Source: Betaproteobacteria bacterium Ga0077523
GTDB taxonomy: Bacteria; Pseudomonadota; Gammaproteobacteria; Burkholderiales; Ga0077523
NCBI GenBank assembly: GCA_001464695.1
Contig: LNDQ01000120.1
Coordinates: forward strand, 62,001 to 126,000
Direction of reading: 5' to 3'
Length of the DNA: 64,000 nt
Numbering within the stretch: position 1 is the stretch's first letter; each line of letters begins with the position of its first letter. A program made the translations under genes and the position numbers. Positions 1 to 3,328 of this stretch are shown here, one piece after another. The notes beneath the pieces were generated by a model, which was not told where the DNA came from, searched no databases, and worked only from the letters and a program-made list of their open reading frames with translations.

Positions 1-257
1 TGGATCGGATCCCAGTTGACGGACGCAAACATGTTGAGCCCGATGATCTCGATCGCGATGAAGCCGCAGATGAGCGACAGCAGCCCCGTGGTGCCGAGAT
101 AGATGGGGCCGATCTGCGCATCGCCAAACTTGCCGAGGAGGTGCATGAAGCCCGGTTTGCCCGAGCGCTGCCAGACACTGCCTGCCGGCAACGCAACGCC
201 TGCGTACGCAGGGCCGTGCACTTGAATGCGCGTGAAGATGTTCTGGTACTCCGCCAT
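1..257 (-). CDS. pufM: Photosynthetic reaction centre M subunit (partial, N-terminal part)
   Basis: Membrane subunit that, with PufL, binds the special-pair bacteriochlorophylls, bacteriopheophytins and quinones of a type-II reaction centre. Only the first 85 codons are present; the gene runs off the left edge of the window. The translation begins [18 protein letters not shown], the characteristic PufM amino terminus, and continues through [18 protein letters not shown] into the first membrane helix and the motif FASVNWDP. It starts 24 bases after the pufL stop, so it is the next gene of the same puf operon. Any pufC or other downstream gene lies outside the window. The family assignment is secure; whether the gene is intact cannot be judged. 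Confidence 0.95.
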
Positions 258-281: not shown

Positions 282-1103
282 TTACCAGATCGGGAGGTTG
301 AGCCACCACCCCCACCATTCAGGCCAGCCACGGGTCCAGAACGGGCCGCTGATGATGATGCAGACCGCGCTCCAGAACACCGCACTCAATGCGAGGAACA
401 GCCCGAGCCGATGGATGCCGAGCGGTCCGATGGAGTAGCCGATGGTGTCGCGGAAGAATGTGTTCTCGTGCTCCGGTGTCTTCATGCGCTCACCCTTGCC
501 CGGATTGGTGGCCGAGAGGATCAACGCGCCGTGCAGCGACAGCGCGAGACACGTGGTGAAGAAGAAGCTCACCGCGATCATGTGCGCCGGGTTGTAGTGG
601 AAGTGCAGATACTGGTAGCCGGTATTCGACACCCAGTCGAGATGGCTCAGGATGCCGTAGGGAAAACCGTGGCCCCAGGCACCGAGCAGCAGCGGGCGGA
701 ACACGACCAGCGTCACGTACGCGAGGATCGCGAAACTGAACGCGAAGGGCACGTGGTAGCCGATGCCGAGCTTGCGACAGATCTCCACTTCGCGCAGGGC
801 CCACGAGCAGAACGAGCCGACCGCGCAGATGGTGATGAGCTGCCATAACCCGCCCTCCTTCAGCGGCGCGAACCGGAGCCCGTAGCTCAAGTCCGGCGGC
901 GCTATATTGATCTGCCAGAGGTTCCACGTCGGACCGATGGCGGCTCCGTACACGATCAGCGCCGTACCGAGCGTGGCGAAGAAGATCGTGGTGACACCGA
1001 AAAAGCCCACGTAGAACGGGCCTACCCAGAAATCGAACAGGTCGCCTCCGAGCAGCGTTCCACCGCGAACGCGGTATTTCCTTTCAAAGCTGAGCATCGA
1101 CAT
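282..1103 (-). CDS. pufL: Photosynthetic reaction centre L subunit
   Basis: L subunit of the type-II photosynthetic reaction centre, 273 residues, close to the usual 270-280. It has five hydrophobic membrane spans and the expected ligand histidines: SHLDWVSN (accessory bacteriochlorophyll region), HFHYNPAHM (special-pair histidine), SLHGALIL and the later [11 protein letters not shown] (non-haem iron ligands). The amino terminus [21 protein letters not shown] is diagnostic. A strong ribosome site GGGAGGA lies about 8 bases before the start. It follows pufA after a 117-base spacer carrying a hairpin and precedes pufM by 24 bases. The gene appears intact. Confidence 0.98.
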
Positions 1104-1220: not shown

Positions 1221-1403
1221 CTACTTCTGGGCTGCCGGCACCGCGGGCGGCGTGCCGCCACCGTGCGCCTTCGAACCCTCGATCCAGTTGAACTTGTCGG
1301 TGCTGAGCAGGATGAAATGGATCAGCAGTGCCAGCACGAACAAGAAGGTGAACAACGCGATCAAGGACCTGCGCGGGTCGAACAGAAGCCAGATTCTCCA
1401 CAT
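1221..1403 (-). CDS. pufA: Light-harvesting complex 1 alpha polypeptide
   Basis: Core antenna alpha subunit, 60 residues with one membrane helix. The start [13 protein letters not shown] is the classic LH1-alpha amino terminus. The helix contains the bacteriochlorophyll-ligating histidine in [12 protein letters not shown], followed by the usual FNWIEG. After that comes an Ala/Pro/Gly-rich tail ending AVPAAQK. A ribosome site AGGAG precedes the start. It lies 12 bases downstream of the pufB-like gene and belongs to the puf operon. It should pair with PufB (1671-1823) to form the LH1 ring around the reaction centre. Confidence 0.97.
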
Positions 1404-1415
1404 GTTTCTCGTCTC

Positions 1416-1640
1416 CTAAGTGAGATGCGACATAAAGGTGTAGACCGCCGTTTTCACGCCCCCGACCATCGATCGCTCCCCTGCGGCCCCGGGCAACCAG
1501 GTCCGCCACTGCAGCGCGAACGTCTGCGCCACCAGTGCCACGAGAAGCAGGACGATGAAGCTCGACAGGAAGATGACGCCGAATCCGTTCGACCCGTTGT
1601 GCGCGAGCGCCGTTGGTGACTGGTTCCGTTCATCAGACAT
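1416..1640 (-). CDS. PufB-like LH1 beta paralogue lacking the bacteriochlorophyll histidine
   Basis: A 74-residue single-span protein encoded between pufB and pufA. Over 30 residues beginning GFGVIFLSSFIV and ending WRTWL it aligns without gaps to PufB of the same operon, with 14 identities by eye including the SFIV and VA blocks and the W-x-x-W-L end. The two conserved histidines of LH1 beta are replaced: the Mg ligand (PufB IVAHILAW) is Gln here (LVAQTFAL), and the earlier FHGIF is FGVIF. About 24 extra residues follow the helix, ending YTFMSHLT. A strong ribosome site AAGGAGGG sits 7 bases before ATG, so it is probably well translated. By analogy with PufX, PufW and protein-U, which sit in LH1 without binding pigment, it may cap or open the ring. 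This is inference; I do not recognise a named family. Confidence 0.85.
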   Translation of the reverse strand: MSDERNQSPTALAHNGSNGFGVIFLSSFIVLLLVALVAQTFALQWRTWLPGAAGERSMVGGVKTAVYTFMSHLT

Positions 1641-1923: not shown

Positions 1924-3328
1924 TCACGCGGCGATCCCTTCGGTCAAGGCAGTGCGCGAACGCTCCACGCGCGCCGTCGTGACGCGCAACTCGCCTGCAC
2001 GCCGAGCATCGCGCTCGGCACGATCGCGGATGCGCTTCGCTGCCGATATCTGAACCAGGACCGGTTGCGTCGCCACGACCTCCGCGAGCAACTGGTGCGC
2101 GTCCGCGTCCCATGGCAGCTCGTTCGACGCGCCGACCCGTGCCGGCGTGGCTTCGACCCGATCGAGATCGGTGCCGAGCGGCAGTAGCGCCCCCGTATCC
2201 CATGAACGGCGTGCCGGTATGGCGGCGGATGATCGCCCCCGGGAACGAGGCCGGGATATACATGGAGCGGCCGCCCAGTTCCGCCGAGTACATGCGCTCG
2301 TTGTAGCTGCCGAACAACACGAGCGGCGGCTTGTCCTTGAGCGCCTGGCGCACCGCGTCGTTGTCGGGCTTGACGCCCGGACGACGCGCGAACGCGAACG
2401 TGCACGGCAAGCCCATCTCCGTTTCAAGAAAGTGCCGCACACCTCGTGCGTAGGTCTCGTTGGCCACGATGGCGAAGCTCGCGGTGCCGAAGAAGTCCTG
2501 GGTGACCGACCGCCACAGGTCCCAGAGCGGCTTCACCGTGGTGTGCTTCTCGCGCTCGATGAACGGCTCGGGATCGAGGCCGAGCAGTTCGCCCAGCGTG
2601 CGGAGGAATTTCGTCGTGCTGTGCAGTCCGATCGGTGCCTGGAGGTACGGTCGCTCGAGCGCTTCGCACAGCATCCGCCCGTACTCACGGTACATGCAGA
2701 CGTTGACGTCGGCGTCGATGAGCTTCGGCACATCGGCCAGGTGACTCCCGAGCGGGAACACGAGGTTGATCTCGGCGCCGATACCCTCCACGAGCCGCCG
2801 GATTTCGGCGAGGTCGGAGGGCATGTTGAAGTAACCGTAGCTCGGCCCGATGATGTTGACGCGCGGCTTCTCACCCAGCTTGCGCTCCTTGCGGGCCGGA
2901 ATCTTCTTCAGACCGTACTCGGTCCAGAGCCAGAACATCGCGCGATTGGCACTCTGCCACTGGTCCTCGTCGATGGTGCGCGGCAGGAAGCGCTTGATGT
3001 TCGTGCCTTCGGGCGTCACGCCGCCGCCGATCATCTCGGCGATGGAGCCGGTCACCACGACCGCGGGCTGGTCCGGGTCGAGCACCTTGTGCGCCCGTTT
3101 CATCGCGCCTTCGGTGCCGTGCTGGCCGAGTTCTTCTTCGCCCAGGCCCGTTACCACGATCGGCAGTTCATGCGGCGGCAGCGCGTCGGTGTAGTGCAGG
3201 ACCGAAGTCACCGGCAGGTTCTCGCAGCCCACCGGGCCGTCGATGATGACCTGCAGGCCCTTGATGGCGGTGAAGACATACACCGCGCCCCAGTAGCCGC
3301 CCGCGCGATCGTGGTCGAGGACCAGCAT
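1924..3328 (-). pseudogene. bchZ: Chlorophyllide a reductase subunit Z, with internal deletion and frameshift
   Basis: BchZ pairs with BchY as the catalytic part of chlorophyllide a reductase (COR), which with the Fe protein BchX reduces ring B of (bacterio)chlorophyllide. From ATG at 3328 (sharing one base with the bchY stop) the protein reads as normal Bch[21 protein letters not shown], the P-cluster-type region [13 protein letters not shown], and on to [15 protein letters not shown]. At about 2181-2190 the reading frame is lost. The expected carboxy-terminal part ([17 protein letters not shown], then [13 protein letters not shown]) continues in another frame to a stop at 1924. From family knowledge about 15-20 residues between these blocks are missing, and the net change is not a multiple of three. 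It is either a real inactivating deletion or a sequence/assembly error. The rest looks under normal constraint. Confidence 0.85.

Follow-up and report, generated by a model that had tools for sequence, protein, structure and literature searches.

PufX, protein W, protein-U and LH1 gamma are additional proteins of the purple-bacterial core complex, each small and with a single helix. ORF74, the protein dealt with here, is like them in being small and single-helix; the gamma-like protein of Rhodopila is described, in the part of the source available, as running opposite to alpha and beta. PufQ is another small protein of the operon, and in the available sections of PMC5725709 it is said to divert porphyrin flux through ferrochelatase in Rba. 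sphaeroides and is called not structural; the same sections report that its helix and C-terminus are conserved and its N-terminus is divergent, give its C-terminus as predicted to be cytoplasmic and cite an old remark that PufQ is similar to reaction-centre helices. According to the passages available, the NOR5/OM60 clade (Halieaceae) and Sphingomonadales lack pufQ (PMC3176799, PMC12654162).

The puf operon of Rvi. gelatinosus has two reported ORFs of unknown function, of which ORF1 precedes pufB and ORF2 precedes pufA (PMC12817894, citing Nagashima 1994); in the available section of that paper ORF2 is compared with PufA1/PufA2 and rejected as the source of pufA2, a comparison with LH1 beta being absent from the section. 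In Roseateles depolymerans a gene flanked by the locus tags of pufB and pufA is named ORF74, with no function given in the available part of PMC10037100, which also reports that in Roseateles pufA, pufB and ORF74 are co-transcribed in a major 1-kb transcript (citing Suyama 2002) and are the loci changing most under starvation. Both ORF2 and ORF74 lie upstream of pufA, as does the gene of the window, which by place, name or size, and taxon is very probably the same gene; the first-pass annotation had taken it for a new one, but on this identity it had already been named, though not characterised. A description of ORF74 or PufQ as an LH1-beta relative was not found in the literature searched, in so far as its texts were available (including PMC9640540, PMC5374385, PMC3176799 and PMC12654162), and Nagashima 1994 or Suyama 2002 may mention a beta likeness.

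The puf locus of the window

The window is the whole 64,000-nt stretch of DNA analysed. Its minus strand carries, in this order, bchZ, pufB, ORF74, pufA, pufL and pufM, followed by pufC on the contig, as listed below with the method of identification in brackets.

1924..3328, minus strand: bchZ with a frameshifting deletion of ~53 nt near 2184-2190, relative to locus L018
1671..1823, minus strand: pufB, short LH1 beta, 50 aa, both His present, tail absent (ORF and Pfam)
1416..1640, minus strand: ORF74, His-less LH1-beta paralogue, 74 aa (ORF, BLASTP and profile comparison)
1404..1418, minus strand: TAG stop codon of ORF74 merging into the ribosome site of pufA, a 12-nt junction laid out like the long-pufB/pufA junction of congeners
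1221..1403, minus strand: pufA, LH1 alpha, 60 aa (ORF and Pfam)
282..1103, minus strand: pufL (ORF and reaction-centre search)
1..257, minus strand: 5' part of pufM (window coordinate converted; the rest of pufM, and pufC, fall outside the window, further along the contig)

An intact reading frame of 74 codons between pufB and pufA, as claimed in the first-pass annotation, is thereby confirmed; it starts with ATG and is preceded by AAGGAGGG. The 14 gap-free identities with the PufB of the operon hold by eye, BLASTP giving 19/50 identities with one gap (E=6e-11), and the replacement of the ligand histidine by Gln and of the second histidine by Gly was read correctly for this copy. Pfam LHC genes in the whole genome number two, the window pufB and pufA. 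An AlphaFold model predicts a helix at residues 17-48 of ORF74 and a weak tail helix at 60-73; with a mean pLDDT of 62 (tail <60) it was kept out of fold searches. ORF74 is no assembly artefact, since it is present in G008 (99%) and G009 (77%) and has homologues in the single-contig genomes G268 and G074.

Within the window bchZ, about 53 nt are missing around 2184-2190 in comparison with G008 (L018, 91-98% identical here) and the frame shifts before the C-terminal part; this deletion is either real or an assembly fault, the genome being a draft of 156 contigs. The usual C-terminal frame of bchZ ends at 1924, ~100 nt ahead of pufB, and there is therefore no room for pufQ.

Distribution, conservation and expression signals

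A first search of 60 relatives gave 12 matches to ORF74, and profile A1, built of 12 ORF74 sequences, matched 48/399 genomes of the window's order (Burkholderiales). Two of these, G093 and G094, were dropped as marginal matches (E 5.0e-4 and 3.9e-4) in long frames, so that 46 puf regions remained, and ORF74 is present in 38 of them. The next gene is pufA on the same contig in 37 of the 38 loci, the contig ending in the other (L094), and none of the profile-A1 ORF74 matches has an internal stop. Among 369 genomes of the order, a search for reaction-centre genes recognised 45 as phototrophic, and 43 of these are within the puf-locus set; the two outside it are G155 and G304, the match of the latter to the first reaction-centre gene being partial. 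The loci of seven named relatives, all labelled Burkholderiales or Burkholderiaceae, likewise have ORF74 between pufB and pufA. Most of the puf operons found in the order thus include ORF74 as a regular component, and a small gene of this type is conserved between the antenna genes in many freshwater purple-type bacteria. Absence from close relatives, which the first-pass annotation had held against its own idea of a new ring component, applies to part of the window's genus, where five of the eight phototrophic genomes have ORF74 and the other three (G002, G006 and G007) have instead a single long PufB bearing the tail.

A class-level search matched 8/369 genomes, 2 of them members of the order; of the 6 matches outside it, 5 lie with puf operons whose betas are long or short, a PufQ-position protein being present in some of them and an ORF74 between pufB and pufA in none. 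The sixth, L114 (G675:C1:137500-143000), encodes an 88-aa beta-like helix protein (HIALWQWRPW) whose neighbours by eye resemble ABC ATPase and cytochrome c-biogenesis proteins, no puf genes being seen within 5.5 kb. On plasmids, tblastn with ORF74 returned three records, the best of which is a Methylobacterium puf region where the match was read as a long beta.

Two further observations concern individual lineages. In L075, L082 and L087 (G005, G245 and G216) an unusual type of pufB/pufA, its alpha starting MWRYWRIVDPRKAIIL, accompanies an ORF74 of normal type, which looks like an exchange of the antenna pair with ORF74 left in place. Genus g126 (G335, G307, G279; loci L084 and L086) comprises small phototrophic genomes, 85-87% complete, which have ORF74 without a pufC match in 3/3 cases.

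The position of the ligand histidine is occupied in the 38 ORF74 by Gln (29), Thr (5), Ser (2), Leu (1) or Gly (1) and never by His, and the second histidine is kept in 2/38. The N-terminal EAxEFH motif of beta is lost as well, conservation of the N part being 0.33 in ORF74 vs 0.69 and 0.70 in the betas. The beta segment WRxWLPG is retained, together with the exit Trp (37/38) and an Ala four residues ahead of the ligand position (37/38). The best conserved part is the tail, with PG in 38/38 and VY and S in 37/38, and it is almost invariant over many families. The 24-residue tail pointed out in the first-pass annotation is there, but it is no added novelty, since long LH1 betas carry the same tail.

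Conservation and dN/dS, named as checks in the first-pass annotation, both bore out a maintained gene: besides the distribution given above, mean pN/pS over 18 close pairs is 0.287 for ORF74, with 0.087 for pufB and 0.115 for pufA, three of the pairs resting on 62 codons and the ORF74 of L063 having been entered with a start 12-15 codons late. ORF74 is under purifying selection and evolves faster than pufB and pufA. The mean score of the ribosome sites (maximum 6) is 4.86 for ORF74 over 35 of the 38 loci (L055, L058 and L063 left out), 5.24 for pufB and 5.13 for pufA (45 loci each).

Relation to LH1 beta and PufQ, and the origin of ORF74

ORF74 is homologous to the long-tailed LH1 beta, and the ORF74s form one clade. 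Long-tailed betas, found in five Burkholderiales loci, in Rhodopila (7xxf) and in 8z81, have the helix, the Trp exit and a PGxxG..S...GVKxA tail in common with ORF74, whereas they keep the N-terminal motif and, as in all betas examined (86/86; 21/21 long, 65/65 short), the ligand His, and ORF74 has neither. Tail included, ORF74 matches the solved LH1 betas 8z81_B (E=1.3e-9) and 7xxf (E=3.7e-8). In hhalign the comparison with long betas gives prob 99.4 and a score of 106.6, which is beyond chance, the best of 40 segment-shuffled controls scoring 17.1, and bears out the reading of the gene as an LH1-beta paralogue; with short betas prob is 96.9 and the score 50.0 (shuffle maximum 22.7), a looser control in which segment shuffles reached prob 42.1. 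For these controls the N part, the helix and the C part of the template were each shuffled separately, in 40 rounds per comparison, and 20 reversed controls stayed at prob <=2.5. The long-beta hmmsearch model places 38/38 ORF74 over the best of 4800 decoys. Pfam LHC (PF00556) gave no match to the window ORF74 at E<=10, and its cut-off was reached by none of the 12 profile members, 2 of which matched below it (best E 0.32); on NCBIfam pufB (NF040862) the window ORF74 scores 16.2 of 61 bits, below the cut-off. ORF74 is best explained as a working member of the LH1-beta family of membrane proteins in which histidine-mediated binding of bacteriochlorophyll has been lost.

Two other affiliations were tried and rejected. 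An alpha-subunit origin is contradicted by an hhalign prob of 8.9, the highest of all comparisons with alpha (the ORF74-alpha shuffle control may rest on 39/40 shuffles), and by 0/85 alphas above decoys with the ORF74 model. As to a protein of PufX type, PF11511 matched neither the window ORF74 nor the 12 A1 members and found nothing over its cut-off in the nine genomes searched.

Between bchZ and pufB, the position of PufQ, 40 puf loci outside the order were inspected (5 class genomes, 11 plasmid records and 24 other genomes). An unannotated or hypothetical single-helix protein of 72-131 aa is found there in 12/40, PufQ in 16/40 (8 annotated pufQ on plasmids, 8 assigned by likeness) and neither in 12/40, by a hydrophobicity filter. 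These 12 proteins and those of three loci of genus g60 make up the 15 PufQ-position proteins (PQP).

L111, L112, L113, L117, L119, L158-L162, L164, L173, L095-L097: PQP, between bchZ and pufB

The PQP of Thiodictyon is THSYN_RS31365, annotated as hypothetical, and in g60 the start of PQP overlaps the bchZ stop by four bases, the same overlap with bchZ as described for pufQ of Rba. sphaeroides in the available part of PMC5725709. The PQP at L112:1578-1826 has His in the LH1-beta ligand column (FAHF) and is a possible intermediate; by eye the other PQP mostly have Arg in this column. PQP differ from ORF74 in that RLLP and SVFGEA...PFAFMG replace its WRSWLPG...AVYTFMSH.

By hhalign, PQP match ORF74 with prob 98.4 (score 74.8, shuffle maximum 15.0), long beta with 97.7 (63.3, maximum 13.5) and PufQ with 94.4 (41.2, maximum 16.5). 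The likeness of ORF74 to canonical PufQ is itself weak, with a direct prob of 64.0 over 31 columns (27.4, maximum 21.8), and PufQ against long beta gives prob 0.4. Over all 4800 decoys, the PQP model in hmmsearch places 15/16 PufQ, 38/38 ORF74, 21/21 long betas, 27/65 short betas and 0/85 alphas; the PufQ model places 3/15 PQP, 7/38 ORF74 and 0/86 betas, the ORF74 model 9/15 PQP and 1/16 PufQ, and the long-beta model 4/15 PQP and 0/16 PufQ. Pfam PufQ (PF05398) matched 1/10 PQP below threshold (E 0.021) and none of the 12 A1 ORF74 members; its cut-off was reached in 0/399 genomes of the order, three sub-threshold matches being found in other genomes. Both ORF74 and PQP are, on these profile comparisons, securely relatives of LH1 beta, and the bridge from ORF74 and beta to PufQ appears good, if indirect, resting on PQP and working in one direction. 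PQP as the link between ORF74, LH1 beta and canonical PufQ is new here.

ORF74 does not occupy the PufQ position, lying as it does between pufB and pufA. Upstream sequence was sufficient in 42/46 Burkholderiales loci, and among these ORF74 (34 loci) and PQP (3) are never together; the upstream scan was too short in 4/38 ORF74 loci (L060, L067, L072 and L076), some bchZ ends are crude, and a weak upstream candidate in L074 was taken as an out-of-frame stretch of bchZ. If ORF1 of Rvi. gelatinosus were a PQP, that operon would hold PQP and ORF2 together, against the pattern in the loci here.

In every one of the 38 ORF74 carriers PufB is 47-52 aa long and lacks the tail. Of the eight loci lacking ORF74, five have a long tailed PufB and three, all g60, a short PufB with the extra ORF between bchZ and pufB. 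The ORF74-pufA junction spans 11-16 nt with the stop adjoining GAG or GGAG (7 loci) and is matched in layout by the long-pufB-pufA junction of 11-12 nt (5 loci); in two g60 loci the pufB-pufA junction is 73 nt, the comparison covering 14/46 loci in all. Since the 38 carriers have a short PufB and the five ORF74-less loci a PufB with the same tail and pufA junction, a tandem duplication of long pufB, which we infer to have taken place in an ancestor of the phototrophic Burkholderiales, is the probable origin of ORF74. The upstream copy would have kept pigment binding and lost its tail, and the downstream copy, ORF74, would have given up the ligands while retaining the helix, the Trp-rich exit and the tail. 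A correlated acquisition of ORF74 and disappearance of the tail from PufB fits in 38/38 cases, which amount to one independent pair on supported branches of the PufL tree (five on all branches), and no significance is attached to the correlation because that tree is poorly resolved. In the tree of beta-family proteins described below, the PufB of the window lies near the long betas of congeners and apart from the PufB of most carriers, which hints at tail loss more than once, the PufL tree being too poorly resolved to confirm it.

A PufQ-position gene could alternatively have been relocated between pufB and pufA, an origin compatible with any reading of function. In a tree of 132 beta-family proteins, which is unrooted, with bootstrap not settled and long branches meeting, ORF74 falls on one side of a branch (99/92), as do the PufQ-position proteins (100/98), and both together on one side of another with all betas on the other (95/91). 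This grouping and the mutual exclusion in the 42 testable loci speak for relocation; the higher profile score of ORF74 with long beta than with PQP, its retained WRxWLPG segment and a pufA junction of long-pufB type speak against it, and we regard it as rather unlikely beside duplication.

Functional readings

With about an even chance of being right, the reading that we favour over a fixed ring or quinone-gap subunit is that ORF74 helps, in the manner of PufQ, with bacteriochlorophyll supply or LH1 assembly. It is favoured because ORF74, like PufQ and PQP, is constrained in the C part over the N part and the long betas show the reverse (N part/helix/C part: ORF74 0.33/0.61/0.72, PufQ 0.54/0.68/0.67, PQP 0.37/0.55/0.50, long beta 0.69/0.76/0.60); PufQ and PQP are also, like ORF74, single-helix proteins of the same operon with a divergent N part and a conserved C part. 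The profile links through PQP, the mutual exclusion of ORF74 and PQP in the testable loci, the purifying selection, the co-transcription with pufB and pufA in Roseateles and the part of PufQ in porphyrin flux also count in its favour. Such a protein would be made together with alpha and beta and adjoin nascent LH1 or pigment-making enzymes in the membrane, where the conserved tail may serve as a binding surface; it would promote the supply of bacteriochlorophyll to the LH1-RC core or the orderly building of that core, and would not itself be one of the fixed subunits that carry pigment in the ring. Several findings count against this helper. The direct ORF74-PufQ match is weak and the PufQ end of the link one-directional, no genome of the order exceeds the PufQ cut-off, ORF74 and PQP are separate clades in the tree and PQP occurs beside a long beta in 10 loci. 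The C-terminus of LH1 beta is periplasmic, against the cytoplasmic one predicted for PufQ, and a subunit made in stoichiometric amounts is what a gene placed between pufB and pufA would lead one to expect. Five Burkholderiales loci have neither ORF74 nor PQP, and the helper must therefore be dispensable, unless the tail of the long beta replaces it.

The first-pass annotation had proposed a ring, gap or dimer role, for which no evidence of its own emerged; the lost N-terminal motif, the PufQ-like constraint and the PQP link point instead to an assembly or pigment-supply helper. ORF74 might nevertheless replace one or a few betas or cap the LH1 ring as a pigment-free gap or quinone channel with a periplasmic tail, a possibility that we hold to be the less probable. 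Its homology to LH1 beta across helix and tail would suit this, as would the exit Trp and the Ala ahead of the ligand position, ribosome sites that almost equal those of pufB and pufA on the pufBA message, and the absence of PufX over the Pfam cut-off from 9/9 genomes, 8 of them ORF74 carriers; the lost N-terminal motif and the three congeners that do with a His-bearing long beta would not. Searches of the PDB found no ORF74-type chain, no chain matching the one PufQ searched and no near-identical chain for one Burkholderiales PufB and the window PufL, from which we infer that no Burkholderiales RC-LH1 has been solved. Chlorophyll has Gln as a ligand in plant LHCII, Gln is also what most ORF74 have at the ligand position, and ORF74 could on that account be an odd pigmented beta with a spectrally distinct bacteriochlorophyll site; 9/38 copies have Thr, Ser, Leu or Gly there, the Gln ligand is therefore not required for retention of the gene, and we consider such a site improbable. 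Least credible is that ORF74 has no function itself and is a relic or a translation spacer: conservation of its N part is low, the gene evolves faster than its neighbours and is missing from 8/46 loci, but its pN/pS is well under 1, its frame is uninterrupted in all the profile-A1 matches and its tail hardly varies among families. A tail serving only as contact for the cytochrome subunit is likewise unlikely because g126 has ORF74 without a pufC match in 3/3 genomes.

In conclusion, a reading frame left functionless in the literature found is now given an identity, that of an LH1-beta paralogue without ligands, and is tied to PufQ, whose origin was found explained nowhere in the literature searched. 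PufQ, PQP and ORF74 may, with chances that we judge to be evenly balanced, form one superfamily of LH1-beta-derived helices that have mostly given up the ligand and now help with pigment supply and the assembly of the photosystem. If this is true, they would stand to purple bacteria as the LHC-like helper proteins stand to oxygenic phototrophs, and an antenna protein would have been reused for the control of pigment making.
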